A stretch of 40,365 nucleotides of DNA from Elusimicrobiota bacterium (GTDB lineage: Bacteria; Elusimicrobiota; Elusimicrobia; Elusimicrobiales; Elusimicrobiaceae): contig JAAYTX010000105.1 in assembly GCA_012523635.1 (NCBI GenBank), positions 1-40,365 on the forward strand, read 5' to 3'. The position numbers and the translations under genes were made by a program. The notes under the pieces were generated by a model that made no database searches, was not told the origin of the DNA, and was given only the letters and a program-made list of their open reading frames with translations. This document shows positions 1,458 to 18,727 of the stretch, piece by piece. Each line of letters opens with the position of its first letter. The stretch's first letter is position 1.

Positions 1458-1459
1458 CT

Positions 1460-2671
1460 ATGCCGGAAAAGAAACGCATACTGCTTGTAGCCCCACTGCC
1501 GCCCTTCCCGCCTACAAACGGCGGGGTGCTGCGCATCTTCTCGCTGGTGAATTTCCTCAAGGAACGCTTTTCCTTCTCCCTGCTTTGCTTCGCCGCCTCT
1601 GAAGGGCCGGAAAAATACACCCAGGGAATAGCGCTGGTGGCACTGGAAAAACTTTTCGACGAAATACACACGGTGCCGTACGAAAGCATAATTTCCGCCA
1701 GGGATTACGCCTGCCCGGGCCTGCCGCGCCTTGCGCTGGACTGGTATTCCCCCGCCATGGCGGCCAAGGTGCAGGAGCTTTCCGCCGAAGGCGGCTACGA
1801 CATAATGCATTTCGAGTTCCTGCAAATGGCGTTTTATTCGTGGTACGCCTCAGGCGTGAAAACCTTCTACACCGAACACGATTTGAGCCATGTCTCGCTG
1901 TTCAACTCCTATTTCCGCGAATGGACCGGCGCTTCCCGCCTGCGGCAACTGCCGCAATGGCTTAAAGTGGTGCGCTACCACAAAAAGGTCTGCTCCGGCT
2001 TTGACCATATAATCACGCTCACCGAAAAAGACACAGCCGGGCTTGCCCGCATAGTGCCCGGCGCGAAAGTGACGCTCGTCAAAACAGGCTCCGACCCGGA
2101 GCGTTTCCACTTCCGCCTCAGAAACGCCGACGAGAACGGCGACGCCATAGTCTATGTCGGGCACTACCGCCATTATCCCAACGAGGAAGCCGCCCTTCGT
2201 CTTGCGACGAAAATATTCCCGCTGGTGAAGCGCGGCTGGCCCGGCGCGAAACTCCAGCTTGTCGGTTCCGACCCGACCGGGAAGATAAAAGCGCTGGCCT
2301 CGCCTGACATTGCCGTTACCGGCACAGTGCCTGAGATACACCCCTATCTTTCTTCTGGCGCGGTTTTCGCGGCCCCGGTCAGGCTCGGCTTCGGCATCAA
2401 GGGCAAGGTGATAGAAGCATTTTTCTCCGGCATACCGGTGGTGGCCAGCCGCACGGTGGCCGACGGCATACCCGAAGCCCGCCACGGCCAGCACATGCTG
2501 GTGGCCGGCAGCGACGCCGATTTCGCCGCCGCCCTTGTGCGCCTGAAGCAGGACCCGGAACTGAAACTGCGCCTTAGCGCCAACGCCCACGACATGGCCC
2601 GCCGCTGTTATTCCTGGCCCGAACTGGCCTCCAAACTGGGCGACGCCTACGACAGGGAGCTTGCCGGATGA
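1460..2671 (+). CDS. GT4-type glycosyltransferase (glycosyl transferases group 1)
   Basis: MPEKKRILLVAPLPPFPPTNGGVLRIFSL… start at ATG 1460 (the ORF track's 1394 start is upstream and overlaps the previous gene). 'APVRLGFGIKGKVIEAFFSGIPVVAS' is the GT-B donor-site region. Confidence 0.85.
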   Translation: MPEKKRILLVAPLPPFPPTNGGVLRIFSLVNFLKERFSFSLLCFAASEGPEKYTQGIALVALEKLFDEIHTVPYESIISARDYACPGLPRLALDWYSPAMAAKVQELSAEGGYDIMHFEFLQMAFYSWYASGVKTFYTEHDLSHVSLFNSYFREWTGASRLRQLPQWLKVVRYHKKVCSGFDHIITLTEKDTAGLARIVPGAKVTLVKTGSDPERFHFRLRNADENGDAIVYVGHYRHYPNEEAALRLATKIFPLVKRGWPGAKLQLVGSDPTGKIKALASPDIAVTGTVPEIHPYLSSGAVFAAPVRLGFGIKGKVIEAFFSGIPVVASRTVADGIPEARHGQHMLVAGSDADFAAALVRLKQDPELKLRLSANAHDMARRCYSWPELASKLGDAYDRELAG

Positions 2672-3783
2672 CCGCGTCGACGCTCCAAAAAACCTCTCTT
2701 GCGCCGGGCGTGGCGGGCACCCTGGCGTTTTTGGACAAAATCAGGCTCAAAGGCCCCGCCAACGACGGTCTGGCCGAACTGCATATAGAGCTTACCCACG
2801 CCTGCAACCTCAAATGCCCCATGTGCCACCACTGGCGGATGAAAAACCCTCCGCCCGGGAAAATGCTGGACGCCAAATCCCTGGCGCGGATGCTGGACGG
2901 CACAAAAAAACTGGACGGCATAAAGGCGGCGACGCTCACCGGCGGCGAACCTTTCCTGCGCGAAGATTTCGCCGAAATAGCCCTGCTCCTGCACAAGCGT
3001 TTCCCGAAAGCCTCGCTGGGGGCGCTGTCCAACTTCCAGTCGCCGGAGCTTGTCCTGCGCCGCCTGCGGCAACTGCGCGGGGCCGGGATAAAGATGTTCT
3101 GGCTGGGGTCCTCGCTGGACGGCATCGGCCCCGGGCACGACGCCATGCGCGGCGTGAAAGGCGCATACGCCAATCTGCTCAAAACAACGGCCCTGCTGAA
3201 GCAGGAGTTCCCGGACATCAATTTCGGTTTCAACTACACCCTTACGCCGGAAAATACGGACGGGCTGTTTGAAACCTATCTGGCCATGGCCTCGCGCGGA
3301 CTGTGGCTGGGGGCCCAGCTGGTGGTTAACCAGGAAAACCTTCCCGCAAAAGAATATGCGTGTACGGACGCGGCCAGAACCGCCGCCGCCGCGCAGATAG
3401 AGCGCGTGCTGACGCATATCTGCTTCGCCGAACGCGCATACGAACTGATAAACAGCGGCAGAAGCGCCGAGAAACCCTGGCTGTGGACGCAGCTGGCCTA
3501 CTGGCACAACCTGCGCCAGTACGCGCTGAAGCCGCGCCGCCTGTTTGAGACCTGCGGGGCGGGGCGCCGCTACGCGATGCTGGCCCCGGACGGCAGCCTG
3601 TTTTTCTGCCCAGTCAAAAAACATCTTATGGCTGGCAACGCAGCCGAAGCTGGATTTGACGCGGCGTGGAATTCGCCGCAGGCGCGTTCCATACGCAAAA
3701 CCCTTTCAAGCAAAAAATGCCACTGCTGGCTGCACTGCATAGCCAACCCTGTGCTGGAACAGGCGGCGGGAGCGCTGAAATGA
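2668..3783 (+). CDS. Radical SAM protein with SPASM-like C-terminus
   Basis: 'IELTHACNLKCPMCHHW' (CxxxCxxC), 'LTGGEPFLRED', and a C-terminal Cys cluster 'CGAGRRYAMLAPDGSLFFCPVKKH…KKCHCWLHC'. ATGA overlap with the upstream gene. Confidence 0.9.
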   Translation: MTASTLQKTSLAPGVAGTLAFLDKIRLKGPANDGLAELHIELTHACNLKCPMCHHWRMKNPPPGKMLDAKSLARMLDGTKKLDGIKAATLTGGEPFLREDFAEIALLLHKRFPKASLGALSNFQSPELVLRRLRQLRGAGIKMFWLGSSLDGIGPGHDAMRGVKGAYANLLKTTALLKQEFPDINFGFNYTLTPENTDGLFETYLAMASRGLWLGAQLVVNQENLPAKEYACTDAARTAAAAQIERVLTHICFAERAYELINSGRSAEKPWLWTQLAYWHNLRQYALKPRRLFETCGAGRRYAMLAPDGSLFFCPVKKHLMAGNAAEAGFDAAWNSPQARSIRKTLSSKKCHCWLHCIANPVLEQAAGALK

Positions 3784-4535
3784 AGCCGGAATGCAGCATA
3801 GTCATTCTTTGCCACAACGACGCGCATTACCTGGAAAACTGCGCCAAAAGCGTTTTCCGCAACACGCGCGGAGTGCGCTACGAGCTTATTCTTGTGGATA
3901 ACGATTCAAAGGACAACGCCGCCGAGGTGATGCGCAAGGTGAAGAAACGCGCCCCCTGCCCGGTGAAAATAATCAGGACGGGGCAGAACCTGTTTTTCGC
4001 AGGCGGCAACCTGCGCGGCCTGCAGGCCGCCTGCGGCGACTACGTGATGTTCCTCAACGCCGACACACTGGTGCCGCCCGGCTGGCTGAAAACGCTTTTA
4101 GGGCATATGAGGGCCAACCCCAACCTTGGCATGATAGGCCCGCTTACCAACTCGGCCGTGGGGCCGCAGTTCATCAAAGACGGCTGTCCCGATTTCAAAA
4201 AACTGGACAGCTGGCACAAAGCCTGGGCCGCCAAACGCGCCGGACGCCCCGAATGCGTGCCGTGGATAATAGGCTTCTGCGTGCTGATGCCGCGCGCGCT
4301 GGCGCTGCGCACCGAAGGCTTCAGCGCGGCCTACGGCCCCGGCGGCTACGAGGATTACGACCTCTGCCTGCAGTTACGCCTGCTGGGGCTGGAAATAGCG
4401 GTCTCGCCGGACTGCTATGTGCACCACTTTGGAGGAAAAGGCTACGCCGGCATGGACTACCACGCCCTGCGCGCCACCAACCAGACTTTCTACTGGAACG
4501 CCTGGACCGCCAAAATTCTGGAGAGACTGCCATGA
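3780..4535 (+). CDS. GT2-family glycosyltransferase
   Basis: MKPECSIVILCHNDAHYLENCAKSVFRNTRGVRYELILVDNDSKDN…; 'FLNADTLVPPGWL'; 'GPGGYEDYDLCLQLRLLGLEIAVSPDCYVHHFGG'. Start at ATG 3780, ATGA overlap. Confidence 0.92.
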   Translation: MKPECSIVILCHNDAHYLENCAKSVFRNTRGVRYELILVDNDSKDNAAEVMRKVKKRAPCPVKIIRTGQNLFFAGGNLRGLQAACGDYVMFLNADTLVPPGWLKTLLGHMRANPNLGMIGPLTNSAVGPQFIKDGCPDFKKLDSWHKAWAAKRAGRPECVPWIIGFCVLMPRALALRTEGFSAAYGPGGYEDYDLCLQLRLLGLEIAVSPDCYVHHFGGKGYAGMDYHALRATNQTFYWNAWTAKILERLP

Positions 4536-5638
4536 AAAAGAACCCAGCACCAAACAAGCCTTTCTCGCCCGACAAGATTTTCGCGCACTCAAGGCGCATA
4601 GAAAACTGGCTTGAAAACGGCCATTCAAAGCCCGTCACGTTCGAACTGGACATCACCAACATCTGCAACAACCAGTGCCCCGGCTGCTTCGGGTTCTATA
4701 ACGGCCTCAACAGCGAGATAATGCGCTTCCACGAAATAGAGACCGTGCTGCGCCAAGTGGCGGCCTTCGGCGGCAAGGCGGTCACCTTTACCGGCGGCGG
4801 AGAACCGCTGACACACCCGCATTTCATTGAAGCCCTGCAACTGGCCAAAAGCCTGGGGCTGGACACGGCGCTCATCAGCAACGGGCTGGCCCTCACCCCG
4901 AACATAGCCGACGCCGTGCTGAAAAACTGCACCTGGACGCGCATCAGCTTGGACGCGGCCGAGCCGGAAAGCTACCGCCGCACCCATGGCATGGGCTGGC
5001 AGGCCTACGCCAAGGTGCTGGACAACATCGGCATGCTGACCGAGCGCAAGCAGAAGCTTAACTCGCGCTGCACCGTGGGCGTGGGCTTTCTCACTCACGC
5101 CGGGGCCGACCACAACATACACAGCTTCGCGGAGCTGTGCAAAAAACTGGGCGTGGATTACGCCCAGTACCGCCCGCTTCTGCGCCGACACGGCGAAAAA
5201 TCGGCCGACTATTCGTCCAAGGCCGTCCTCAGCGACATGCAGCGGGCCAAGAAGGATTTTTCGAACGGGCACTTCAAGGTGCTGTGCTCGGAGCACAAAT
5301 ACGCCAAGATTTCGGCGGGCCAGACGGCCCGCCCCTACAAAAAATGCTACGGCCACAACTTCGCGGCCGTCATCTGCGCGGACATGAAAATGTACCTGTG
5401 CTGCCATATGCGCGGCGTGGAAAAATACTGCCTCGGCGACCTGCGCAAGGACAGGCTGGCGGACGTCTGGAAGTCGGCGCAGCGCAAGAAAGCTTTCGAG
5501 AACATAAATTTCAGGGACTGCCCGCCCCTGTGCCGCTGCGACTCCTTCAACACCATACTCTGGGAAATCAAGGAGGGCCGCCTGCCGCGCAAGGATTGGC
5601 CCAAGGGCCTTGTCTGGGAGCATGAGAACTTCATCTAA
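4532..5638 (+). CDS. Radical SAM/SPASM protein
   Basis: 'ELDITNICNNQCPGCFGF', 'TFTGGGEPLTHPHF', C-terminal 'CYGHNFAAVICADMKMYLCCHM…CPPLCRCD'. Start at ATG 4532, ATGA overlap. Confidence 0.9.
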   Translation: MKKNPAPNKPFSPDKIFAHSRRIENWLENGHSKPVTFELDITNICNNQCPGCFGFYNGLNSEIMRFHEIETVLRQVAAFGGKAVTFTGGGEPLTHPHFIEALQLAKSLGLDTALISNGLALTPNIADAVLKNCTWTRISLDAAEPESYRRTHGMGWQAYAKVLDNIGMLTERKQKLNSRCTVGVGFLTHAGADHNIHSFAELCKKLGVDYAQYRPLLRRHGEKSADYSSKAVLSDMQRAKKDFSNGHFKVLCSEHKYAKISAGQTARPYKKCYGHNFAAVICADMKMYLCCHMRGVEKYCLGDLRKDRLADVWKSAQRKKAFENINFRDCPPLCRCDSFNTILWEIKEGRLPRKDWPKGLVWEHENFI

Positions 5639-8402
5639 CCCCAAACGCGCCCTGGCGGCGCTGGTGCAGATGCCCGGCTGGGGCGTGGAAGCCCCCCCCT
5701 ACAGCCTGGCCTGCCTTGCCGCGTACATAAAGCAGAACACGCCGCACTCGGCCAAATGTTTCGATTTCAACCTGCGCTGTTACAGGGCGTCGCCTGCGCT
5801 GGCCCGCATGTGGGACGACAAGGACCTCTATTCCCTTTGGGAGGACGACCCGACCGTAGAGCGACTCTTTCAGGAGAACAGGGGGCTGTTTGAAGCCTGC
5901 GCGCGGGAACTGGTGCGCAGCGGCGCGCAACTGATAGGCTTCACCACCCACACCACTTCCTGGCGCCTCAGCCTCAAAATGGCGGAACTGGTGAAAAGCC
6001 TGGCGCCAGACCGGTTTATAGTTTTCGGCGGCCCGCAATGCTCGCTGGCCCAGGCCGGGCTTGAACTGGCGCGCCACCCCTGCGTGGACGCGACCAGCAC
6101 CGGCGAGGGCGAACTTGTGTTGTCGGCGATACTGGACTCGATAGCGGCCACCGGAAAACTGCCGCGACTGCCGGGCTTGGTTGTCAAAGACGGAAAAGGC
6201 GGCGTAAAAAACTGCGGCCCGTCCCCATTCCCGGTGAACCTGGACCATCTGCCCTACCCGGATTATTCCGATTTCGCGAGGGAAATGTCGGCTGACGTGT
6301 ATAAAAACCCGGCCCGTATAGAGATACTGGACAGCAGAGGCTGTCCAACCCGCTGCAACTTCTGCAGCGAATGGCAGTTCTGGCACTGCTACCGCAGCAT
6401 GAGCGGCGAACGCGTTTACGCCGAGGCCATGCACCAGCTCCGCCAAAACCCCAGGGCGGGGCATATCTACTTCATAGGCTCGCTAATGAACGGCAACCCG
6501 GCCGCGCTTGAAAAATTCTGCGACCTGGCCCTGGCGGGGGGCCTGAAATTCACCTGGGAAGGGCAGGCCAAGGTGCATCCGCGCATGACGCCGGAACTGG
6601 TGAGCAAAATGGCCCGCTCAGGCTGCAACTGGCTGGGCATAGGCATAGAGTCCGGCTCCGAACGCCTGCGCTCCAAGCACATGCACAAAAGCTTCACCAA
6701 CGCCAACGCGCTGGACTTCCTGAAAGCCTGCAAGGAATCCGGCATCAAAACCCAAATAAACATAATGTTCGGGCATCCGGGCGAGACGCGTGAAGACTTC
6801 AACGAAACCCTGAAATTCCTTTTGCAGGCCCGTCCCTTCATAGATTCTGTGCTGGCCAGCCAGTCCTTCTGCGTGCTGGACAAGCACACCGAACTTTACA
6901 ACCGCAGTTCCGAGTTCGGCATAGGCAACCGCGAGCATCATCTTTTCTGGCATTCCGACGGAGGGCGCAATACCTATCTGGAACGCTTCCGCCGCTACGA
7001 GGAGTTCTGCAAGCTGGCGCTGTTCCTGGGCCTGCCGGAATCCTCCGGCGTGGCGCGGGTGAAGCCGGATAAATGGTTCATGCTGGGCGAGTATTTCCGC
7101 CACATAAAAGATTTCAGGCACGCGTTGACCTGCTACAGGCGCTCCTACAAGCGCGAGAACATGAAAGAAACGGCCGCCCGGCATATCGACGCGCTGTCGC
7201 GCGAACTGAAACTGCCGCGACCGGACCTGCCCGCCGACAAAACCGGTGAAGCACCGCGGACGCAGGAGGCAAAGCCCTCTTTCGACCCGGAGTTCAGGGC
7301 GAGAAACCTGGCCCTGAACGAAAAGGAATTCGCGGAACGCGCGCTGGTGCTGGAGTCCACCCCCCGCTTCGTCACGCTCGGAACCCACTGGAAATGCAAC
7401 GCCCGCTGCGTTTTCTGCCAGCAGGACGACCTCCCGCTTTTCAACCCCGGCATTTACGATTCTCTGTTCGACAGAAAGCTGGGCCCGGCCCTGCGCGGCG
7501 CGGAAAAGATTTCCTTTGTGGGCTTCGGCGAACTGCTGTTGATGCCGGAAGTGGAGTCCTTCCTTGACAGGCTCAACGCCGAACTGCCCGACACCTGGAA
7601 AATATTCACCACCAACGGCTCGCCCCTGCGCATGGAACTGGACAAACGCTTCCTGCAAGGGAACTATTCTCTGCAAATCTCCCTGCACGCCCCGTATGCC
7701 GCCCTGCACAAGGAGCTTACCGGGCTGGACCGCTTCAACGAAATAACAGCCTCAATACGGCGGCTGTCTGCCCTGCGCCTGGAACACGGCAGACAGCGCA
7801 ACCTGCACCTGAGCCTGGTCTGCGTGCTAAACGAAAAAAACATAGACTGTCTTCCCGAAATGGCGGCTTTCGCTTCCGGCCTGGGCGTACAGGAACTGCG
7901 TTGCGAATATATGACGGTTTTCCGCCCCGAACTGGTGCCGCTGTCCTGCTACTTTTTCCAGAAGCGGACAAACCGGGCGCTGGACTCGGCCCGCGCAATG
8001 ACTGAGCAACTGCGGGCGGCAGGCATGGACCTGAAACTGCCGCCGTCGTTCGGCGACAAAACCGCCACAAAACCCTACGAATCCGGGCAGAAAGGCGAAC
8101 ATTCGGTCTGCGACGACCCGTGGCGGCACATCTATGTGGAAGCGCAGGGCACCTCCCTGCCCTGCTGTTTCTGGGGCGCCCATAGCGGCGACCTCAACAG
8201 ACAAAGCTTTCAGGAACTCTGGAACGGGACTTTTTACAGGCGCCTGCGTCAGGCCATGGCCGAAGGCAAGCCCCTGCCCACCTGCGCCAGCTGCGTCAGG
8301 CTGAAGGGCAATTCCATAGACAGGTTTGAGACGCATATGACAGCGCGCGGGGCCTTGCGCGCGCAGATACTCAAGGCCGCAAAACGGATGAAAAAGTCAT
8401 GA
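5622..8402 (+). CDS. Double radical SAM fusion: B12-binding-like N-terminus + rSAM 1 + TPR-like linker + rSAM 2/SPASM
   Basis: N-terminal 'MPGWGVEAPPYSLACLAAYIKQ…' and 'FIVFGGPQCSL' B12-rSAM style. rSAM 1 'SRGCPTRCNFCSEW' with 'GIGIESGSERLR' and 'MFGHPGET'. rSAM 2 'THWKCNARCVFCQQD', 'TNGSPL', SPASM-like 'CDDPWRHIYVEAQGTSLPCCFW…CASC'. Confidence 0.9.
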   Translation: MRTSSNPKRALAALVQMPGWGVEAPPYSLACLAAYIKQNTPHSAKCFDFNLRCYRASPALARMWDDKDLYSLWEDDPTVERLFQENRGLFEACARELVRSGAQLIGFTTHTTSWRLSLKMAELVKSLAPDRFIVFGGPQCSLAQAGLELARHPCVDATSTGEGELVLSAILDSIAATGKLPRLPGLVVKDGKGGVKNCGPSPFPVNLDHLPYPDYSDFAREMSADVYKNPARIEILDSRGCPTRCNFCSEWQFWHCYRSMSGERVYAEAMHQLRQNPRAGHIYFIGSLMNGNPAALEKFCDLALAGGLKFTWEGQAKVHPRMTPELVSKMARSGCNWLGIGIESGSERLRSKHMHKSFTNANALDFLKACKESGIKTQINIMFGHPGETREDFNETLKFLLQARPFIDSVLASQSFCVLDKHTELYNRSSEFGIGNREHHLFWHSDGGRNTYLERFRRYEEFCKLALFLGLPESSGVARVKPDKWFMLGEYFRHIKDFRHALTCYRRSYKRENMKETAARHIDALSRELKLPRPDLPADKTGEAPRTQEAKPSFDPEFRARNLALNEKEFAERALVLESTPRFVTLGTHWKCNARCVFCQQDDLPLFNPGIYDSLFDRKLGPALRGAEKISFVGFGELLLMPEVESFLDRLNAELPDTWKIFTTNGSPLRMELDKRFLQGNYSLQISLHAPYAALHKELTGLDRFNEITASIRRLSALRLEHGRQRNLHLSLVCVLNEKNIDCLPEMAAFASGLGVQELRCEYMTVFRPELVPLSCYFFQKRTNRALDSARAMTEQLRAAGMDLKLPPSFGDKTATKPYESGQKGEHSVCDDPWRHIYVEAQGTSLPCCFWGAHSGDLNRQSFQELWNGTFYRRLRQAMAEGKPLPTCASCVRLKGNSIDRFETHMTARGALRAQILKAAKRMKKS

Positions 8403-9586
8403 GCGACACCGGCGCGGAACAGGCTGTAGCCGACAAGCTGGCCCAAAGGAAGCTCTGGGCCAAGCTTTTCAACTACCGCGCGGCCCGCGAGCAGGCGCGG
8501 CTTGGCCTTGAATACGCAAGCGCCATGCCCTACTGGCTCACCATAGACCCTTCAAGCTGCTGCCAGCTCCAGTGCCCGTTCTGCCCGACAGGACAGCGCC
8601 GCAACGTGCGCCCGAACGCGCTCATGGAACCGGCGCTTTTCCGCGCAGTCATGAAACAACTCGGCCCTTCGCTTCTTCATGCCGACCTTATGAACTGGGG
8701 AGAACCCATGCTTCATCCCGACATCTTCGAATTCATAGCCCTCACCAAAAGCTACCGCGTGGAAACGTTGCTTTCCTCCAACATGAACCATCTGCCCGAA
8801 GGCGGGGCCGAAAAGCTGGTGCTTTCCGGGCTCGACCTGCTCACCGTCTCCATAGACGGGGCGTCGCAGGAAAACTACGCCAAATACCGAGTAGGAGGAG
8901 ATTTCAACGCGGCGGTGGAAAACACGGCCCGTGTGGCCAGCGCAAAACTCAAGCTCGGGCGGAGCAACCCGAAAATAACATGGCAGTTCCTGGTATTCCG
9001 CCACAACGAACATGAAATGGACAGCGCGCGCGAACTCGCCGTTCAGGCCGGGGCCGACGAAATAGGCTTCACCGCCCCCAACCTGCCGTTCAAGCCCGGC
9101 ATCAAGGACGAGTGGATGTCCACACTGCCCAAATACGCGCTTTACGACGCCGAACATTTCCCCGAACGACCCCCGTGGGAGTGGGACAAAACCACGGACA
9201 CCGAAGGCAAGCCCCTGGATATAAACGTGGATGTTTACGCCGGGGATAAAACGCGCCGCCCTTGCCTCTGGCCCTGGACTGCGACGGCCATAAACCCTGA
9301 CGGCTCGGTCTCCCCCTGCTGTTCGGTCGAGGAACGCTGCCACGACTTCGGCACACTGGCCGAGCACTCTTTCAGCGCCATCTGGAACAACACGCAGTAC
9401 AGGGCCGCGCGCAGGCACATAGCGGCTTACGCCAGGGGCGAGAAGAATTCCCTTCCCGCCTCCCCGCACGCCTGCGAACGCTGTTTCTCCATAGGCAAAT
9501 CCGATTTCCGCTTCCCGCACTGGTGGGAAACCGACAGACTCTGCGCCTTCCCGGACCCTTTGGCCCCGCATAAGGACGGGAAATGA
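8399..9586 (+). CDS. Radical SAM/SPASM protein
   Basis: 'DPSSCCQLQCPFCPTGQ', 'LMNWGEPMLHPD', 'PCLWPWTATAINPDGSVSPCCSVEERCHDFGTLAEHSFSAIWNN'. ATGA overlap. Confidence 0.92.
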   Translation: MSDTGAEQAVADKLAQRKLWAKLFNYRAAREQARLGLEYASAMPYWLTIDPSSCCQLQCPFCPTGQRRNVRPNALMEPALFRAVMKQLGPSLLHADLMNWGEPMLHPDIFEFIALTKSYRVETLLSSNMNHLPEGGAEKLVLSGLDLLTVSIDGASQENYAKYRVGGDFNAAVENTARVASAKLKLGRSNPKITWQFLVFRHNEHEMDSARELAVQAGADEIGFTAPNLPFKPGIKDEWMSTLPKYALYDAEHFPERPPWEWDKTTDTEGKPLDINVDVYAGDKTRRPCLWPWTATAINPDGSVSPCCSVEERCHDFGTLAEHSFSAIWNNTQYRAARRHIAAYARGEKNSLPASPHACERCFSIGKSDFRFPHWWETDRLCAFPDPLAPHKDGK

Positions 9587-12510
9587 AAACAGCGCTGATT
9601 CAATCCACGGTCTGGTGGACTGTGGATATGCCGCTTGGCATAGCCCAGTTGGCCGGTGCGCTTCGCCATGCGGGCCACGAGCCTTGCGCGCTGGACCTCA
9701 ACATTCTTCTCTGGCACAAGGCGACGGAACCGGAAAAACCGCTTTGGGACTGGGAGAATTTCCAATACTGGAACAACCCAGAACTGGTAAAACGCCACAT
9801 AGACTCAAACCGCGCATTTATCGAAAGCGAACTGCAAAAGCTACTCAGGGCGGGAATCGGGGCGGCAGGATTTTCGGTCAATTCCGGCAACCAGTTGTTC
9901 AGCCTTGAACTGGCACGCCTGCTCAAGAAAGAGAAGCCGGACCTGTTTATCATGTTCGGCGGCCAGCATTTCTTCAGGTCCGAAAACGCCTCGGCCTGGA
10001 TGCAGAACCCCGAAGCGGACTGCGTGTTCACCGGCCCCGGCGACCTTGTGATGCCCGCCATGCTGACCGCGCTTGAAAAAACCGGCGGGCCTGCCGTACA
10101 GCCCGGCACGCTGCTGCGCTCCCCGTCGGGGATAATAAACGGCGGCCCCGCCCAGCCGGTGCCTGATTTGGACGCCCTGCCTTTTGCCGACTTCACCGTG
10201 CTTCCTGTCGGGCTTTATGCCAACAAGCTCCACATTCCCTTCCAGTCCAGCCGCGGCTGCATCTGGAAATGCCGCTATTGCAGCGCCACAAATTTCTGGC
10301 AGGGCTACAACCAGATGAGCGGCGAGCGCATGTTCTCCGAGCTGATGCACCACAAAAGCCTGTTTCCGGACCGCACTCACGTGGAGTTCTACGACCTCAC
10401 CGCAAACGGCAGGCCGGAGGCTCTGCACAAGCTGTCTGAACTGCTTATAGAAGACCACAAAGCCAACGGCTGGAAAAATTTTTTCGGCTGGAAGATAAAC
10501 GCAGTAATCCGTCCGGAAATGACGCCGGAACTCCTGAAGAAACTGCGCCAGTCCTTCTGCAAGGACATAATTTACGGAATAGAAAGCGGCTCTGAACGTG
10601 TGCTCAGGCTGATGAACAAAAACTACAGGCCGGACGTGGCCCTGCAAGTCCTTCATGACACGCACCAGGCCGAAATCCACACCACGGCGAACTTCATGTT
10701 CGGCTTCCCGGGCGAAACCGAAGAGGATTTCGGGCAAACGCTGGCTTTTCTTGAAAAAGCCGCGCCGCACCTGGACAGGGTGTACGCAAGCGCCACGTTC
10801 ACCAGCCTGGAAGAAGGCAGCTACCTCACCGACCATAGGGCCGAGTTCGGCATCGCGGTGCCGCCGCCCGACAACTTCCACAACCTCTACTGGGAAAGCT
10901 CCGACGCTACAAACACCTACCCGGTGCGCATGGAGCGCTACAAACGCTTCCGCGCCCGGGCCATAGCGCTGGGGCTGGACGCCTACAAAGGCGTGCAGGG
11001 CGACCTTGAGCAGAACTCCCTCTTCAGCCTGGCCGAATACTACCGCTACAAAGGCGACCACGCAAAAGCTGTTGAAAACCTGCTTGCGGCCTTCGATATA
11101 AATTCCGCCAACGAAGCCGTGCTGGACGCGCTTTTGCCGTATTACAAGGACCTTGCCCTCTACCACTCGGCGGCAAGGCAGTTTATGCGCCTACAACGCT
11201 ACCCTGCACGAGGCACCCGCACCCAAATGGAAAGCCGCATTTCGGCCTTGATATCCGGCATGCGGGACAAAGCGTCGTTTGATGCCGCTACAATGAGCCT
11301 GCGCTGGATGAGTTCCAGCTTTGACCCGCAACAGCTTTCCTATCTGCTGGCCCTGGCGCATGAAACTGTTTCGCGTTTCATCCCGGAGCATAAACTGGAC
11401 GGCATACACCTGTTCCCCCTACTCCCCCAGCGCGGATCGGGAAGAAACAACACTCTGTCTGCCCTGCGAGACCATAACACCCGCTTCAACGCGCAGGAAT
11501 GCTCTCAAAACCGTTCAGTGCTGGGCACTTATCCGCGCCGCGTCTTCCTGCAAATGGACGGCCCCTGCAACGCCGACTGCATTTTCTGCTCCCGGGACGA
11601 CGAATACGAGCATTTCTCCCTGGATAAATATCTCAATGCCCTGCACGGCAGGCTGCGCCCTCTTCTGCGGCATGCCGAAGAGGTGCTGTTCACCGGCTCC
11701 GGCGAATTCCTGCTGCTGCCGGAAGCGGAACGGATAATTGAGTTTTTCAATCGCTTCTATCCACAACTTGAAAAACAGCTGGCCACCAACGCCTCGCACA
11801 AAAATCGCCGCCTGTGGGAGCTGATAAGCGCGCCAGAGAGCCGCTACACCATACAGGTTTCGCTGCACAGCGCCACGCCGCAGACGCATAAAACCATGAC
11901 GCGCCTGCCCTCTTTTGACGACGTGATGGGCAACCTCGAATACCTGGCCTCGCGCCGCAGTATGGCGGGGCATCCCAAATTGCACCTGATGTTCGTGATG
12001 ACCACCGAAAACATACAGGATCTGCCGGCCTTCGTGCGGCTTGGCGCAAAACTCAAGGCCGACAAGCTGATAGCCAACCACGCCTATATCTACAGGCCGG
12101 ACCAGCGCAAGTACTCGCTCCATGGGAACACGGATTCAGACAAATGGCTGGCGCAGGCTTATGCAGAAGCCGAAAAACTAGGCGTAAAAACATTTTTCCC
12201 TCCTCTTTTCACCGGGCAAGTCGCACGAACCGCGCAAGCGCCGCAGAAGATAAACTGCCACGAGCCGTGGACACAGCTTATGGTGAACCCCCGTGCCGAC
12301 GCCCTGCCCTGCGACCTGTACGGCGAATTCTCCCAAAACCTCCTGCGCACTGATTTCTGGGCGCTCTGGAACGGCCCGGAATACAGGAAAATACGCGCCT
12401 CGATACGCGAAAAAGGCGGCTGCCTGGCACGCTGTCCGCGCCACAACCCGGACAGCCTCAAGACCGCTGAAAACCTGCAAATACAGCGCCGGGAATCGCA
12501 ACAGCCATGA
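9583..12510 (+). CDS. Double radical SAM fusion, paralogue of the 5622-8402 product
   Basis: N-terminal B12-binding-like 'MPLGIAQLAGALRHAGHE…FIMFGGQHFF'. rSAM 1 'SSRGCIWKCRYCSATNFWQGYNQMSGERM', 'YGIESGSERVLRLMNK', 'MFGFPGETEEDF'. rSAM 2 'MDGPCNADCIFCSRDD', SPASM-like 'CHEPWTQLMVNPRADALPCDLYGE'. Confidence 0.9.
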   Translation: MKTALIQSTVWWTVDMPLGIAQLAGALRHAGHEPCALDLNILLWHKATEPEKPLWDWENFQYWNNPELVKRHIDSNRAFIESELQKLLRAGIGAAGFSVNSGNQLFSLELARLLKKEKPDLFIMFGGQHFFRSENASAWMQNPEADCVFTGPGDLVMPAMLTALEKTGGPAVQPGTLLRSPSGIINGGPAQPVPDLDALPFADFTVLPVGLYANKLHIPFQSSRGCIWKCRYCSATNFWQGYNQMSGERMFSELMHHKSLFPDRTHVEFYDLTANGRPEALHKLSELLIEDHKANGWKNFFGWKINAVIRPEMTPELLKKLRQSFCKDIIYGIESGSERVLRLMNKNYRPDVALQVLHDTHQAEIHTTANFMFGFPGETEEDFGQTLAFLEKAAPHLDRVYASATFTSLEEGSYLTDHRAEFGIAVPPPDNFHNLYWESSDATNTYPVRMERYKRFRARAIALGLDAYKGVQGDLEQNSLFSLAEYYRYKGDHAKAVENLLAAFDINSANEAVLDALLPYYKDLALYHSAARQFMRLQRYPARGTRTQMESRISALISGMRDKASFDAATMSLRWMSSSFDPQQLSYLLALAHETVSRFIPEHKLDGIHLFPLLPQRGSGRNNTLSALRDHNTRFNAQECSQNRSVLGTYPRRVFLQMDGPCNADCIFCSRDDEYEHFSLDKYLNALHGRLRPLLRHAEEVLFTGSGEFLLLPEAERIIEFFNRFYPQLEKQLATNASHKNRRLWELISAPESRYTIQVSLHSATPQTHKTMTRLPSFDDVMGNLEYLASRRSMAGHPKLHLMFVMTTENIQDLPAFVRLGAKLKADKLIANHAYIYRPDQRKYSLHGNTDSDKWLAQAYAEAEKLGVKTFFPPLFTGQVARTAQAPQKINCHEPWTQLMVNPRADALPCDLYGEFSQNLLRTDFWALWNGPEYRKIRASIREKGGCLARCPRHNPDSLKTAENLQIQRRESQQP

Positions 12511-13628
12511 CCAGCGGGCACAGGCGTTCGCTTGACAAGTATACCGACCTGACGCCGGAGCGCGTGCGCCGCATCCGCGAATGGTTTGCGGGAAAACCGC
12601 AAAGCCCGATATTCGCGGAAATCTATCCCACGATGTCCTGCAACCTGAACTGCCTGTTCTGCCGCAGGCAGACCTACTTTCCGCCAGTGCCGCGCGGCCC
12701 CGAACTGCCGCAAGCCCGGCTTCTGCGGCTGCTAGACGAAATCACCGAAATGGACGTATTGGAAGTATGCATCAAGGGCGGCGGAGAGCCGCTGATGCGG
12801 CGCGGCATACTGGAGCACGCGGCTAAACGCTTCGGCAAGGCGCTTGTGCGCGGGCAATTGGTAACAAACGGCACGCTGATGGACGAGAAACTGGCCGGAT
12901 TGCTGACGGACAGCGGCTGGATGGAAGTCTGCTTCAGTCTTGATTCCCCGTTTGAGCAGACGCACGACTATCTGCGCGACAGGAAAGGCGCTTTCGCACT
13001 GGCGGCAAGAGGAATAAAAGCGCTGGCCGCCGCCAAACGCGCGGCAGGGCGCAAATTCCCAGTTATAAAAATAAACATGGTTATCACCGCCACTAACTGC
13101 AGACAGGTACCGGAAATGCTGCGTTTCTGCGCCGAAAACGGCGTCGGAACTCTGGACCTTGACGCCATGGACCCCGAGGTTCCCGGTTGCGAGCATCTGC
13201 GCCTTTCGCGGGAACAGGCTCAAGAGTTCAGCGCGCATGCGCCGGAATGGGCGGAATTGGCCGCGAACAGCGGCATACATACCAATCTTGCGATGTACTC
13301 TCAAACGGCTTACGTTCAGCGCGGCAAAGCCCCGGAAGCCGCGCCGAAATCAGCGGCGAAGACCCTGCCGCCCTGCCTGCTGCCCTGGCAGCAGATTTCC
13401 ATCAGGGCTGACGGGAGCGTTGTGCCCTGCTGTGTGGCCAGCGACGACTATAAAACTCCGGCCCTGCACTCAAAAACGCTGGCGGAAGCCTGGTTCGGCG
13501 AACCGATGGAAAGCATACGCCGCGCCATGCTGTCCGGCGGCAGGCCATGGTTCTGCCATGCCTGCACCCGGGCTTTCAGCGACGCCAATTCGCGCCTGCT
13601 GGACGAATGCGGCTTAAGCCATAAATAA
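12507..13628 (+). CDS. Radical SAM/SPASM protein
   Basis: 'PTMSCNLNCLFCRRQ', 'CIKGGGEPLMRRG', 'LVTNGTLM', 'CLLPWQQISIRADGSVVPCCVASD…CHAC'. ATGA overlap. Confidence 0.92.
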   Translation: MTSGHRRSLDKYTDLTPERVRRIREWFAGKPQSPIFAEIYPTMSCNLNCLFCRRQTYFPPVPRGPELPQARLLRLLDEITEMDVLEVCIKGGGEPLMRRGILEHAAKRFGKALVRGQLVTNGTLMDEKLAGLLTDSGWMEVCFSLDSPFEQTHDYLRDRKGAFALAARGIKALAAAKRAAGRKFPVIKINMVITATNCRQVPEMLRFCAENGVGTLDLDAMDPEVPGCEHLRLSREQAQEFSAHAPEWAELAANSGIHTNLAMYSQTAYVQRGKAPEAAPKSAAKTLPPCLLPWQQISIRADGSVVPCCVASDDYKTPALHSKTLAEAWFGEPMESIRRAMLSGGRPWFCHACTRAFSDANSRLLDECGLSHK

Positions 13629-13652
13629 GCTATCCTATTTTCCAGAACAACC

Positions 13653-14681
13653 ATGGCAGACAACAGACCTGACAACATCAAAAACGCCCCGCCTCACAGG
13701 GTTTTCTTCAACTGGGACGTGGTGTACCGCTGCAACTATAAATGCACCTACTGCACCTATACCGTGCGCGGCTGGGACAAAATACCCGGCATGGAGATAC
13801 TGCCGACCCACGAGCAGATGGTGGCCGGATGGAAGCGCATGCGCCAGCTATACGGCTGCTGCCATGTGATGATGTCCGGCGGAGAGCCCAGCATACTCCC
13901 CCGCTTTTACGAACTGATGGAGGAAATGTCCGCGCTCCACACTATTGAGCTTATAAGCAACCTCTCTTTCGACGCTAAAAAACTCCTTTCCGTGGTGGGC
14001 CCTGACAAACTGCGGGTCGCGGCTTCGCTTCACCTCAACCACGTTACCCCGGAAGAGTTCCTCGAAAAGGCGCTGGCGCTTAAAAAAGCCGGAGTGGAAG
14101 TTTTCATAAACTTCGTGGCCTACCCGCCGCATCTTCAGCGCATGAAGGAAATCCACGCACTGTTCCTGGCCAACGACATCCCTTTCTACATCCACCCCTT
14201 CACCGGGCCGTTCAACGACAGGCTCTATCCGCGAGACTATATCCCAGCCGAACTGGAGCTTTATCAAGAGGCCGTGAACATCGGCGGACGAATAGCCCAC
14301 AACAGCCACTGGCTTAATTTCAAAAAGGAAAACCTTCAGCCGCGCGTGGCGACCAAGGACGGCTTCGCGACCATGACGCCCCCGCAGTCGGTGAAGGAAA
14401 TAAAGCCGGAGCCGATTGTCTGCAAGATGGGGCACATGTACGCGAAAATACTGCCCGACGGCATGACGCTGCGCTGCTGCGCGAAAAACGAGTTTTTCCG
14501 TTCGCCGGAGAAAATAAGCGCGCCGGACCTTCTTGGCAACATATTCACCGACCCTGACTTCAAAATGCACCCGGAGCCTCAGCCCTGCGCGCACAGGTCC
14601 TGCCCCTGCGACCGCCGCATGAAACTGGGCGAGGAATCCAACTGGCTGGACCGCTGGCGCATAATGCAGCAGCCTTTTTAA
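13653..14681 (+). CDS. Radical SAM protein with compact Cys-rich C-terminus
   Basis: 'DVVYRCNYKCTYCTY', 'MMSGGEPSILPRFY', C-terminal 'CKMGHMYAKILPDGMTLRCCAKN…PCAHRSCPCD'. Confidence 0.88.
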   Translation: MADNRPDNIKNAPPHRVFFNWDVVYRCNYKCTYCTYTVRGWDKIPGMEILPTHEQMVAGWKRMRQLYGCCHVMMSGGEPSILPRFYELMEEMSALHTIELISNLSFDAKKLLSVVGPDKLRVAASLHLNHVTPEEFLEKALALKKAGVEVFINFVAYPPHLQRMKEIHALFLANDIPFYIHPFTGPFNDRLYPRDYIPAELELYQEAVNIGGRIAHNSHWLNFKKENLQPRVATKDGFATMTPPQSVKEIKPEPIVCKMGHMYAKILPDGMTLRCCAKNEFFRSPEKISAPDLLGNIFTDPDFKMHPEPQPCAHRSCPCDRRMKLGEESNWLDRWRIMQQPF

Positions 14682-14685
14682 ACCT

Positions 14686-15543
14686 ATGCCGGAAGACGAC
14701 AACAAACAACCGCAGGTGAGATTCACCTGGAACACGCACTGGGGGTGCAACTTCCGCTGTTCCTACTGCTTTTTTCACGACCTATGGGAACATTACGCCC
14801 CACGCAACGTTTACAAGCCGGCGGATTTCTGGATAGAACGCTGGAAAGCGGTACATGAACGCTACGGGCGCTGCTACATCGTAGTCAACGGCGGCGAGCC
14901 GCTGGCTTACCCCGACTTCGTCAAAATCATACTGGCGGTGTCGCAACTGCATTACCCCATAAACATCACCACCAACGCTTCAATACACCTTGAAGAACTT
15001 ATAGAGAAGGCCGACCCGCGCCGCATAACACTTTCGCTCAGCTTCCACCCGGAACACCACAAGGACATAGACAAATTCATCGCGCTGATGAGCAAAGTGC
15101 GCGGCAGAGGTTTTGAAGGATGCAATAACATAGTGGCCTATCCCCCCTATATGAAAGAACTGCCTGAATGGCTGGACAAGTTTGCCGCCGCAGGGCATCC
15201 GATGAAAATAAACCCCTTCATAGGCGACTACCAGGGCAAACACTACCCCGAAGCCTTCACCCCGGAAGAAAAGAAGATAATGGGCATGCAGGAAGGCTGG
15301 GTTGAGGAAAAGAAGCGCTACTCGAAGCTGTGCGCGGCAGGCTTCAAGGCCGCGCTGATACTGCCCGACGGCGGAGTGACCCGCTGCGGGCAGATAGGCG
15401 ACAGGGGCGTTTTCTCCAATTTCTTCGACCCGGATTTCCGGCTGCTGGACGCCCCCGCCCCCTGCGACGCCGAACGCTGCCCCTGCGACGAATGGAAGAT
15501 AATCCCCGACGAGACCGCCTCCGAGGGCCACTATCTGCCATGA
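14686..15543 (+). CDS. Radical SAM protein, paralogue of the 13653-14681 product
   Basis: 'NTHWGCNFRCSYCFF', 'VVNGGEPLAYPDF', C-terminal 'CAAGFKAALILPDGGVTRCGQ…PCDAERCPCDEW'. Confidence 0.88.
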   Translation: MPEDDNKQPQVRFTWNTHWGCNFRCSYCFFHDLWEHYAPRNVYKPADFWIERWKAVHERYGRCYIVVNGGEPLAYPDFVKIILAVSQLHYPINITTNASIHLEELIEKADPRRITLSLSFHPEHHKDIDKFIALMSKVRGRGFEGCNNIVAYPPYMKELPEWLDKFAAAGHPMKINPFIGDYQGKHYPEAFTPEEKKIMGMQEGWVEEKKRYSKLCAAGFKAALILPDGGVTRCGQIGDRGVFSNFFDPDFRLLDAPAPCDAERCPCDEWKIIPDETASEGHYLP

Positions 15544-15666
15544 GACTAAACGTTACTAGACTGTAAAATTCAAAATTACTACACTGACAATAATACTGAA
15601 CGCCATGACGAGGGGCGGGCATTCAGACAGCCTGTTCATACATACATTAATACGGGGAGAGAGAAG

Positions 15667-16791
15667 ATGCCTGTGCAGAACTCCGCAAAAATGACGGTCA
15701 AATTCGTAAACGCCGTGCGCAATTACCACATGATTCAGAAGGAAATAGACGCCGCCTACAGGGACGTCATGGAAAGCGGCGAATACATCGCCAGGCGCCA
15801 CCTGAGCAGCTTCGAGGAGAATCTGGCCAAATTCGTGGGCACGAAATACGCCGTCGGCCTCAACAGCGGCTACGATGCCCTGCACATGTCCCTTCGCGCT
15901 GCCGGCGTGGGGCGCGGAGACGAAGTGATAGTCCCGGCGCACACCTTTGTGGCCACCTGCTCGGCGGTGGTGAATGCCGGGGCGGAGCCGGTGCTCGTGG
16001 ACGTGGGCAAGGATTTCAACATAGACATTTCCAAAATTGAGGAAGCCATAACCCCCCGCACCAAGGCCATAATACCGGTGCATCTCAGCGGCTACATGGC
16101 CGACATGCCCGCTGTGATGAAAATAGCCGAAAAGCACAAGCTGGCCGTGGTGGAAGACGCCTGCCAGAGCCTTGGCTCGAGCATCAACGGGCGCGGGGCC
16201 GGGTCCTGGGGCCTCACCGGCTGCTGGAGCTTCTATCCCTTCAAGATACTTGGCGGCTACGGCGACGGCGGCGCCATCACCACCAACGACCCGGAAGTGG
16301 CCGACTTCGCGCGCCGTATGCGCTATAACGGCGAAGACCGCCATACCGGCGAATACCACGGCCACGGCTTCACCTGCCTGCTGGACAACCTCCAGGCAGC
16401 ATTCCTGGACGTCAAACTGCGCCACCTGCCGGCCTGGATAAAGTTCCGCAAGGCGCTGGCCCAGCGCTACCGCGACGCCCTTTCCGACCTGCCGGACCTG
16501 TTGCTGCCCCACTACGACAGGGCGGGTTTTGACCACATCTACCAGAACTACACCCTGCGCTCGAAACAGGGAAGCGACTTCTCCGATTACCTCAAGGCAA
16601 ACGGCATAGAGGTGCTGACGCAGTTCCGCAAGCCCTATTACAGGCACGAGGCGCTCAAGCTCAAGGACAGGGGCTTCCCGGAAACCGAGGCGCTGAGCCG
16701 CGAGGTCTGCTCCCTGCCGATGAACGTGGAGATAACGGACGAGGAAGTCGCCTACGTCATAAAAACCGTACGCGCTTTCTACAAAAAGTGA
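15667..16791 (+). CDS. DegT/DnrJ/EryC1/StrS-family PLP aminotransferase
   Basis: 'GTKYAVGLNSGYDALHMSLRAAGVGRGDEVIVPAHTFVATCSAV', 'VVEDACQSLGS', 'WSFYPFKILGGYGDGGAI' (Lys in the PLP-motif context). Confidence 0.95.
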   Translation: MPVQNSAKMTVKFVNAVRNYHMIQKEIDAAYRDVMESGEYIARRHLSSFEENLAKFVGTKYAVGLNSGYDALHMSLRAAGVGRGDEVIVPAHTFVATCSAVVNAGAEPVLVDVGKDFNIDISKIEEAITPRTKAIIPVHLSGYMADMPAVMKIAEKHKLAVVEDACQSLGSSINGRGAGSWGLTGCWSFYPFKILGGYGDGGAITTNDPEVADFARRMRYNGEDRHTGEYHGHGFTCLLDNLQAAFLDVKLRHLPAWIKFRKALAQRYRDALSDLPDLLLPHYDRAGFDHIYQNYTLRSKQGSDFSDYLKANGIEVLTQFRKPYYRHEALKLKDRGFPETEALSREVCSLPMNVEITDEEVAYVIKTVRAFYKK

Positions 16792-17603
16792 ACATGGACG
16801 CCAAAAGACACAGCGAACTGAAAGACATCTGCCGCCTGGTGCGGCGCGACGTGCTGGAAATGTGCGAACGCACCAGTTCCGGCCACGTCGGCTCGGCCTT
16901 CTCGGTGGTGGAGATACTGGTGGCCCTCTACTTTGAGGCCATGCACGCCGACCCGAAAGACCCGGAAAGGGACATCGCCATACTTAGCAAAGGCCATGCC
17001 TGCGCCGCGCAATACTCGGTGCTGCACCGCAAAGGCATAATGCCCGACGACAGGTTCGCCTCCTTCTCGGTAAACGGAAGCGTGCTGGGGCATCACCCTC
17101 ATTGGGAACCGGCCATCGGGCTGGAAGGCAACATGGGCTCGCTCGGGCACGGCCTCCCAATAGCGGCCGGAATGGCCTATGCCGCGTCCAAACAGAAATC
17201 AAAGGCCAAATTCTTCGCCATCATGAGCGACGGCGAGACCGAGGAAGGCTCAGTCTGGGAAGCGGCGATGTTCGCCGCCCACCACAAGCTGTCCAACCTC
17301 TGCGCGATTGTGGACGCCAACGGCATACAGGCCCTGGGCAATACCAGGGACATAGTGTTCCCGGCCCCGCAGCCGCAGCGCTGGCACGGCTTCGGCTGGC
17401 GCGTGGAGGAAGTGGACGGACACGACCTGAAGCAACTGGCCTCGGCGCTCTCCAAGGCCGGAGAACCCGGCGGACCGCTGGTGGTGGTGGCCAACACAGT
17501 AAAGGGCAAGGGAGTCAGCTTCATGGAAAACAAACTCCTCTGGCATTACCGGCAGCCCAAGGGCGAGGAATTCCTCGCCGCCATGAAGGAGCTTGAAAAA
17601 TGA
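16788..17603 (+). CDS. Transketolase, N-terminal (TPP-binding) subunit
   Basis: 'SGHVGSAFSVVEILVALYF', 'ILSKGHACAAQYSVL', 'MGSLGHGLPIAAGMAYA', 'IMSDGETEEGSVWEAAMFAAHHKLSNLCAIVDANGIQ'. Start is GTG 16788 (overlapping the upstream stop) or ATG 16794. Confidence 0.95.
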   Translation: MNMDAKRHSELKDICRLVRRDVLEMCERTSSGHVGSAFSVVEILVALYFEAMHADPKDPERDIAILSKGHACAAQYSVLHRKGIMPDDRFASFSVNGSVLGHHPHWEPAIGLEGNMGSLGHGLPIAAGMAYAASKQKSKAKFFAIMSDGETEEGSVWEAAMFAAHHKLSNLCAIVDANGIQALGNTRDIVFPAPQPQRWHGFGWRVEEVDGHDLKQLASALSKAGEPGGPLVVVANTVKGKGVSFMENKLLWHYRQPKGEEFLAAMKELEK

Positions 17604-18520
17604 GAAGCACTTTCTTCAAAACTTTCTTTGAACTGGCCGACAAAGGCGCGAACATCCACCTGCTCACCGCCGACCTGGGATTTGGCGTGCTTACGCCGTA
17701 CCTGGACAAAGGCTCGCAGCATGTGACAAACGTCGGCGTGGCGGAACAGAACATGATAGGCCTTGGCGCTGGCATGGCCATGCGCGGCGTGCGCCCTTAC
17801 TGCTACTCCATGGTGCCGTTCCTGCTCATGCGCACGCTTGACCAGATACGCGCCGACATCTGCGCCACAAAACTGCCGGTCACGCTGGTAGGCGTTGGGG
17901 CAGGGCTGGCCTACGGCCCGGAGGGCATGACGCACCACGCCATAGAGGACATAGCCATCACTCGCACCCTGCCCAACCTCACTATTTTCTCTCCCGGAGA
18001 CCCGCAGGAATGCGCGTTTGCCGTTGAGGAATCGTTCAAGATAAACGGCCCCGTATATCTGCGCATAGGCGCCAACATGGACCCGGCGCTTCACCCGGCC
18101 TGTTGCGGCCTTAAAACAGGCAAGCTGGCTAAAATGCGCGACGGCTCCAAGGCGGCGGTCATCGCCACTGGCACGATGCTGGCCCGCGCCCATGCGGCGG
18201 TAGACGCCCTCGCCAAGGAAGGAATAGAGTGCGCCCTTTATTCGGCGCATACGCTGAAGCCGCTGGACAAGAACGGGATAGCCGAAATCTCTTTAAAGCA
18301 CAAGCTGATATTAAGCGTGGAAGAGCACAGCCTGATAAATGGGCTGGGCAGCGCCGTAGCCGACATACTGCTGGAGGCCGGCTATAAGGGCCGTTTCCTC
18401 AAAATAGGCCTGCCGGACGAGTATGCTTCGCGCCTGGGCACACGCGACTGGCTGCGCGACCATTACGGCCTCTCGGCCGGGCATATCGGCGCCACGCTGA
18501 AGGACGCGCTTAAGCACTGA
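17600..18520 (+). CDS. Transketolase, C-terminal (Pyr) subunit
   Basis: 'NVGVAEQNMIGLGAGMAMRGVRPYCYSMVPFLLMRTLDQIRADI', 'YGPEGMTHHAIEDIAITRTLPNLTIFSPGD', 'EEHSLINGLGSAVAD'. ATGA overlap. Confidence 0.95.
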   Translation: MRSTFFKTFFELADKGANIHLLTADLGFGVLTPYLDKGSQHVTNVGVAEQNMIGLGAGMAMRGVRPYCYSMVPFLLMRTLDQIRADICATKLPVTLVGVGAGLAYGPEGMTHHAIEDIAITRTLPNLTIFSPGDPQECAFAVEESFKINGPVYLRIGANMDPALHPACCGLKTGKLAKMRDGSKAAVIATGTMLARAHAAVDALAKEGIECALYSAHTLKPLDKNGIAEISLKHKLILSVEEHSLINGLGSAVADILLEAGYKGRFLKIGLPDEYASRLGTRDWLRDHYGLSAGHIGATLKDALKH

Positions 18521-18605: not shown

Positions 18606-18679
18606 GCGGGCGTAGTTCAATGGTAGAACGCGACCTTGCCAAGGTCAAGATGTGGGTTCGATTCCCATCGCCCGCTCCA
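18606..18679 (+). tRNA. tRNA-Gly (anticodon GCC), CCA encoded
   Basis: Acceptor GCGGGCG/CGCCCGC, D-arm GTTCAATGGTAGAAC, anticodon loop TTGCCAA, T-arm GTGGGTTCGATTCCCAT, then T + CCA. Confidence 0.95.
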
Positions 18680-18700
18680 GATTTATAAATTTAAAACGAC

Positions 18701-18727
18701 ACGGCAGCCCAACGGCTGCCGTTTTTG
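18701..18727 (+). terminator. Rho-independent terminator downstream of tRNA-Gly
   Basis: ACGGCAGCC-CAAC-GGCTGCCGT hairpin followed by a T-rich tract (TTTTGTTT). Confidence 0.85.

Follow-up and report, generated by a model that had tools for sequence, protein, structure and literature searches.

Protein B of an Elusimicrobiota bacterium, a double radical-SAM fusion: probably a later join of two neighbouring enzymes from a gene set inherited together

Introduction

To our knowledge, few proteins have two radical S-adenosylmethionine (rSAM) cores, and among these FbiC alone is well studied; as far as we know, it has neither a B12-binding domain nor a TPR-like linker nor a twitch domain. The stretch of DNA analysed here, the 40,365 nucleotides of contig JAAYTX010000105.1 from an Elusimicrobiota bacterium (hereafter, the window), encodes two double-core proteins, A and B, on either side of the rSAM gene r7 in a single operon. 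This locus raises the questions of how two such fusions came to lie almost side by side, whether the fusion itself has been kept by selection and what the fused enzymes might do. An original prediction, made from the letters alone, ascribed A and B to an old duplication followed by specialisation, and the fusion to selection rather than accident. The view that we reach, and hold with moderate confidence, is that B is a fusion of two usually separate, neighbouring rSAM enzymes belonging to a co-inherited set that would tailor the sugars of a surface glycan. In the following, A_N, A_C, B_N and B_C denote the N- and C-terminal modules of the two proteins, and r3, r5, r7, r9, r10 and r11 the other rSAM enzymes of the operon, which also encodes glycosyltransferases of types GT2 and GT4.

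Results

A and B are paralogous in both halves

B comprises 975 residues and is encoded from an ATG start on the forward strand at 9583–12510. As predicted, this open reading frame holds two rSAM motifs in the same domain order as A: CIWKCRYC starts at residue 226 (nucleotide 10258) and CNADCIFC at residue 662 (nucleotide 11566, first given as 11565). Pfam PF04055 (Radical_SAM) matches two separate stretches, and both halves belong to the radical SAM superfamily, each with a CxxxCxxC motif in an rSAM barrel. A Rossmann-like domain and an rSAM barrel come first in an AlphaFold2 model (47-row alignment, mean pLDDT 87.8, pTM 0.73); a helical linker connects them to another rSAM barrel, and a short domain for cluster binding comes last. 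According to Pfam, Foldseek and profile searches, B_N (9583–11052) consists of a B12-binding-like Rossmann domain (residues ~1–190) and the first core (motif at 226–233). The linker (11053–11460; residues ~475–625) is TPR-like at its start, and is modelled as helices at 475–600 and as disordered at 602–619. B_C (11461–12510) comprises the second core (motif at 662–669) and a twitch domain with auxiliary Cys residues 892, 910, 947 and 951. As the linker resembles in BLAST the C-terminal tails of unfused B_N proteins of relatives, the join lies where B_N ends and B_C begins.

A (5622–8402, forward strand; 926 residues) carries the motifs CPTRCNFC and CNARCVFC, and its start is most likely ATG 5622 rather than TTG 5610. 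The two proteins align colinearly by BLASTP over 959 columns with 30% identity (E=1e-121), and share the order B12-binding-like domain, rSAM core, helical linker, rSAM core and SPASM/twitch domain. The domain-by-domain alignment called for at the outset bears out the paralogy of both halves, with 34% identity for N (E 4e-89) and 30% for C (E 4e-43); the other rSAM enzymes of the operon match either half far more weakly (best 8e-11). The signature stretches first put forward as evidence of paralogy were quoted exactly, but two of them are general to a wider class of rSAM enzymes, GIESGS being found in 10 and MFG.PGET in 24 of 50 free-standing relatives; only 'FW...MSGER' is largely restricted to A and B. 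The CxxxCxxC motif is kept in 100% of 19 A_N, 44 B_N, 29 A_C and 40 B_C modules, and the four auxiliary Cys residues in 97–100% of the C halves. Judging from these sequences, no core in A or B looks dead, and the loss of function in one half that might have spoken against the prediction is not seen. With both halves paralogous and the cluster cysteines retained in all four cores, the duplication is old.

The same modules are fused, split and reordered among relatives

We located the modules of the window in about 75 other stretches, gathered by patterns from A and B and thus biased toward A/B-containing loci; nearly all are from metagenome-assembled genomes. These maps gave at least 15 arrangements that combine two cores or more, each module having a single CxxxCxxC motif. 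Both A_N+A_C and B_N+B_C are fused in the window and in two Elusimicrobiales relatives (L052, L057), A is fused and B split in other Elusimicrobia (L059, L061, L063, L068), and both are split in L058, L064, L067 and L074. In Omnitrophota, B is fused, A_C lies ahead of A_N, A_N is fused with r7, and GT4 is fused with r3 or with r3 and A_C. In Endomicrobia and Sumerlaeota, A_C, r7, B_C and B_N are separate genes in that order, and in the Endomicrobia examined A_N is at a different locus, beside r3, a GT2 gene and an ABC-2 exporter gene. Overall, the A_N+A_C fusion is limited to the class Elusimicrobia of the Elusimicrobiota, and most Elusimicrobiota encode B_N and B_C separately, their order being reversed in Endomicrobia and Sumerlaeota. 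Further joins include r7+B_C (L081), B_N+r11+B_C (L069, L095) and r3+A_N+A_C (L061). Glycosyltransferases of types GT2 and GT4 are physically fused with r3 and A_C in relatives.

Some modules are also multiplied. In L065 (3969–16619), a tandem of six B_N-type genes, of which two match weakly, precedes a single B_C gene, the N module alone being amplified. Next to a GT4 gene, L104 and L106 (10001–14974) encode a 1657-residue protein that contains three rSAM cores (A_N-type, A_N-type, r3). The STM4011-like enzymes r10 and r11 are strongly multiplied in L069, L070, L071, L076–L080, L084 and L103, and in Omnitrophota they are fused to one another as pairs and triples.

A/B-type proteins (E<=1e-40) are present in 34 of the 341 genomes of the phylum Elusimicrobiota. 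Homologues of r7 (E<=1e-47) were detected in 30 genomes, 27 of which are among those 34 carriers and three elsewhere (Fisher p 3e-30). The named relatives belong to the Elusimicrobia, Endomicrobia, Omnitrophota and Sumerlaeota; Nitrospirota and a few others have N-type, r3 and GT4 modules only. Related loci also hold GT2, GT9, PMT_2, SGNH, carbamoyltransferase and ABC-2 exporter genes.

The two fusions are best read as separate, later joins

In quick maximum-likelihood trees with SH-aLRT support, A_C (98) and B_C (92) form sister clades, with 98–99 for the pair, so that the C halves are not in the unrelated clades that would have spoken against the original prediction. The N-half tree has an A_N clade (100) and a B_N clade without support. 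A strict A_N+B_N clade is rejected (p-AU 0.0005), with solo proteins branching in between, because solo B_N-like relatives were left out of it; a clade including them is not rejected (p-AU 0.505). Clearly different histories for the N and C halves are not supported, as the clade test is neutral once the solo relatives are included. When the N tree is rooted with an outgroup, A_N, B_N and the solo clades stand as a fork whose order of branching is not resolved.

The distances of fused halves correlate well (r=0.89 for B_N/B_C, 0.84 for A), in keeping with co-divergence, but those of unfused modules do so equally (0.87–0.90; 0.87 for A_N/B_N). As fused and unfused modules correlate alike, the whole set is co-inherited, and fusion adds nothing visible. 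The idea of a fusion selected rather than accidental applies to the module set, which is kept together, and not to the exact fusion, which is not.

Might the splits and fusions be assembly artefacts, frameshifts or misjoins? The provenance of the records from metagenomes and the shortness of contigs would allow for it, but the same architectures recur in independent assemblies, A_N+r7 in five Omnitrophota, GT4+r3+A_C in four, and the order A_C, r7, B_C, B_N in at least eight stretches, and the stop/start overlaps are regular. The members of a split pair overlap by 1–4 nucleotides or are close neighbours, for the most part in different frames, which marks the pairs as genuine genes rather than simple sequencing slips, and we regard artefacts as highly improbable. 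The history favoured at first, in which one fused double-rSAM gene was anciently duplicated, A and B being its direct descendants and separate genes arising by repeated splitting, is a more serious contender. It accords with the sister relationship of A_C and B_C, with the possibility that A_N and B_N are sister subfamilies once solo relatives are counted, and with the presence of fused B in both Omnitrophota and Elusimicrobiales. However, it requires one gain and 14 losses of fusion on the rooted N tree (15 changes), against a minimum of 7, and with gains weighted three times as much as losses its cost is 17, against 13 for the free optimum. Splitting also leaves unexplained the reversed orders (A_C/A_N, B_C/B_N), the unlinked loci and the new partners; A is fused in the class Elusimicrobia only, and the linker of A, like that of B, resembles the tail of N proteins that are not fused. 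We therefore consider a fused ancestor unlikely. The old duplication thus stands for the N and C modules, given the sister C clades and the intact cores, but not for a fused gene, as the modules are separate or re-partnered elsewhere. From these comparisons, we conclude that the module pair was duplicated long ago and that, on the best reading, neighbouring genes were joined later, and separately, to give each of the two fusions of the window. The loss of a stop codon between coupled genes would be a likely route to such joins.

The N half resembles cobalamin-type enzymes and the C half BtrN

By Foldseek and profile search, the fold of the N half matches MgmA, OxsB, TsrM, TokK, CysS and AprD4, MgmA and OxsB being the profile-search matches. 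The PF02310 (B12-binding) model scores 27.5 bits, under its cut-off of 32.1, and the fold resembles MgmA and OxsB but AprD4 equally. The B12-activation domain of MetH is present in the genome of the window (2.35 Mb, 94% complete), which its relatives place among the Elusimicrobiota (Elusimicrobiales). Among curated families, TIGR03975, an rSAM C-methyltransferase family acting on ribosomally synthesized and post-translationally modified peptides (RiPPs), was rejected as an identity for the N half, which scores 117.6 bits against a cut-off of 281.85; for ApyD the figures are 110 and 750 bits. The N half is probably a cobalamin-type rSAM enzyme, either a methylase or an AprD4-like deoxygenation enzyme, and would use cobalamin.

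As for the C half, phmmer with B_C alone found no relative in the PDB, and only a profile did so, with BtrN first (E 2.6e-12) and PqqE next; Foldseek also lists SuiB and SkfB. The auxiliary Cys residues of B (C892-X17-C910, C947-X3-C951) and A (C834-X17-C852, C892-X2-C895) both match the spacing of BtrN (C-X17-C, C-X2/3-C); four auxiliary Cys residues are conserved in B_C and five in A_C. Because four of them follow the BtrN spacing, A and B have a twitch domain with one auxiliary cluster rather than a full SPASM domain. The latter, with seven Cys residues and two auxiliary clusters, was rejected, although the short model PF13186 does pass its cut-off. BtrN has an auxiliary cluster with four Cys ligands and oxidises an aminocyclitol (PMC9012708). 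By analogy, the C half probably takes two electrons from its substrate via one auxiliary [4Fe-4S] cluster.

The operon and its surroundings

A run of genes on one strand (186–18520, forward) comprises g1, GT4, r3, GT2, r5, A, r7, B, r9, r10, r11, an aminotransferase gene and a transketolase pair. B overlaps both neighbours by ATGA, and the same step recurs through much of the operon. The genes are so tightly packed that the sole gap of more than ~25 nucleotides is at 15544–15666, which leaves hardly any room to encode a peptide. The first gene, g1 (186–1457), is conserved and has no Pfam match. It is followed by the GT4 glycosyltransferase gene (1394–2671), r3 (2668–3783), the GT2 gene (3781–4535, with a putative start, the longest frame beginning at 3666) and r5 (4526–5638; longest frame from 4253, homologous part from near 4526). 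Like r3 and r5, r7 (8399–9586), between A and B, and r9 (12507–13628) code for rSAM/SPASM enzymes. The STM4011-like enzymes r10 (13653–14681) and r11 (14686–15543) follow, the latter being the most multiplied module among relatives. A gene for a DegT-type sugar aminotransferase (PseC/WecE-like; 15667–16791) probably belongs to the same transcription unit, and a transketolase is encoded as two genes (16788–18520), for its N part (16788–17603) and C part (17600–18520).

Downstream of the operon are a tRNA-Gly(GCC) gene and a strong terminator-like hairpin (18606–18722). Farther along the window, the gene for a molybdenum-hydroxylase large subunit (26986–29316) is cut by an in-frame TAA at 28303–28305, with MoCoBD_1 upstream and MoCoBD_2 downstream, and coding similarity seems to continue past the stop. 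That operon also holds FAD, 2Fe-2S, XdhC-like and MobA-like genes.

Discussion

The reciprocal fusions, the co-occurrence of the modules and their glycosyltransferase partners suggest a single multi-rSAM pathway. The set of GT2, GT4, r3, A_N, A_C, r7, B_N, B_C and r10/r11 is co-inherited, even as its members are joined, separated and rearranged. Its enzymes would modify sugar units stepwise by radical chemistry, through oxidation, methylation, deoxygenation or epimerisation, and the glycosyltransferases would build the modified sugars into a surface glycan. Fusion may hold consecutive enzymes together, yet be dispensable. We infer the glycan substrate, the types and order of the reactions and the use of cobalamin, the sugars being suggested by the sugar genes at related loci, the aminotransferase of the operon and the presence of AprD4 and BtrN among the best structural models. 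The substrates of AprD4, GenK and GenD1 are aminoglycosides, that of AprD4 being sugar-type (PMC5461906). It is tempting to speculate, although we would give it slightly less than even chances, that this represents an undescribed pathway of uncultivated bacteria with a fixed core of six rSAM enzymes and a varying complement of STM4011-like ones, a modular, fusion-shuffled line that remodels surface-glycan sugars and to which glycosyltransferases are physically tied. Several observations weigh against our reading. Fused pairs co-vary no more than unfused ones, with no sign that fusion itself matters. The Pfam match that points to B12 binding by the N half is below its cut-off, and CobS and BtuR were not found in the genome of the window, at its 94% completeness. 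RiPP C-methyltransferases head the curated matches to the N halves, albeit far under their cut-offs, and the role in sugar chemistry is argued from neighbours and from structural relatives at only 13–18% identity.

Those RiPP-type matches raise the possibility that the rSAM enzymes modify a ribosomal peptide, which the glycosyltransferases would then glycosylate. Twitch and SPASM domains are common among RiPP enzymes, SuiB and SkfB are listed for the C half, and tandem copies would fit many sites on one peptide. However, the packed operon has that single gap, BtrN, an aminocyclitol enzyme, tops the profile search with the C half, and no match to a peptide-recognition domain or peptide exporter was obtained. 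No recurrent small gene turned up either, although frames of less than 150 residues were not clustered and the small frames of relatives not searched exhaustively. On balance, we find a RiPP product unlikely. A cofactor or modified lipid as the product, instead of a glycan, seems to us quite improbable too. Weak matches to hopanoid/ladderane-type and metallo-cofactor rSAM models would agree with it, as would the many nitrogenase-like genes of some carriers. A genome survey of 2020 reportedly described rSAM suites with nitrogenase paralogues in groundwater Elusimicrobia, with a proposed role in making a cofactor or lipid. Nevertheless, glycosyltransferases are fused to rSAM modules, and nitrogenase-like genes are missing from the window genome, G123, G306 and G325 and elsewhere never lie on the contig of the cluster. 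A link to those nitrogenase-paralogue/rSAM clusters was rejected, PF00148 being absent from the window genome and on other contigs in carriers. As an aside, G192 has 18 PF00148 stretches, most of them on one contig (C16) away from the rSAM cluster, and G230 and G186 also have many.

Across phyla, one gene set displays its modules in many different states of fusion, which is strong genomic evidence for a partnership, physical or through a shared pathway, of about ten rSAM enzymes and their glycosyltransferases. Unannotated rSAM genes that lie in a row in uncultivated Elusimicrobiota and Omnitrophota thereby become a testable pathway with named partners, and they suggest a surface-glycan chemistry for which the literature searched gave no description. 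Our literature searches found no description of this module set; the family is new, as are its paralogous fusions almost side by side and the variety of alternative joins among the modules of a single set.

Parts of the set nonetheless have known counterparts. The N half has the same Rossmann B12-binding-like and rSAM barrel fold as the class B enzymes MgmA (9ccb), OxsB (5ul4), TsrM, TokK and CysS. Unlike the MgmA/OxsB class, to which it is less than 20% identical, it is joined to a second rSAM enzyme or has one encoded next to it. AprD4, the 1,2-diol dehydratase of apramycin biosynthesis (6fd2), also has this fold (TM-score by target length 0.71, 14% identity); its partner is the reductase AprD3, of which no counterpart was identified here. 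BtrN, of butirosin biosynthesis (4m7t), shares the CxxxCxxC core and the C-X17-C and C-X2/3-C auxiliary cysteines with the C half, but it is a stand-alone protein of about 250 residues. As for TIGR03975 and ApyD, the best curated matches of the N half, no precursor peptide was seen in the operon of the window. A similar genomic context is found on a plasmid of Brachyspira hyodysenteriae, where several rSAM genes lie among sugar genes (glycosyltransferase, epimerase) thought to serve lipooligosaccharide (LOS) biosynthesis or glycosylation (PMC4267127). As here, rSAM enzymes are amid sugar genes, but a plasmid search retrieved only distant B12-type rSAM proteins, the best matches covering at most about half of B, and no such double fusion.

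A clear precedent for a pair of rSAM enzymes whose state of fusion differs between lineages is FbiC versus CofG and CofH. In the coenzyme F420 pathway, the two cores are fused as the FO synthase FbiC in many bacteria and separate as CofG and CofH in archaea, and both domains cleave SAM (PMC11917521). Homology of the domains studied here to CofG and CofH was rejected, as none of the FbiC, CofG and CofH models is among the 25 best-scoring NCBIfam matches and the best curated ones are to other families. Unlike FbiC, the system described here has two paralogous fusions side by side, and its modules take many alternative partners.

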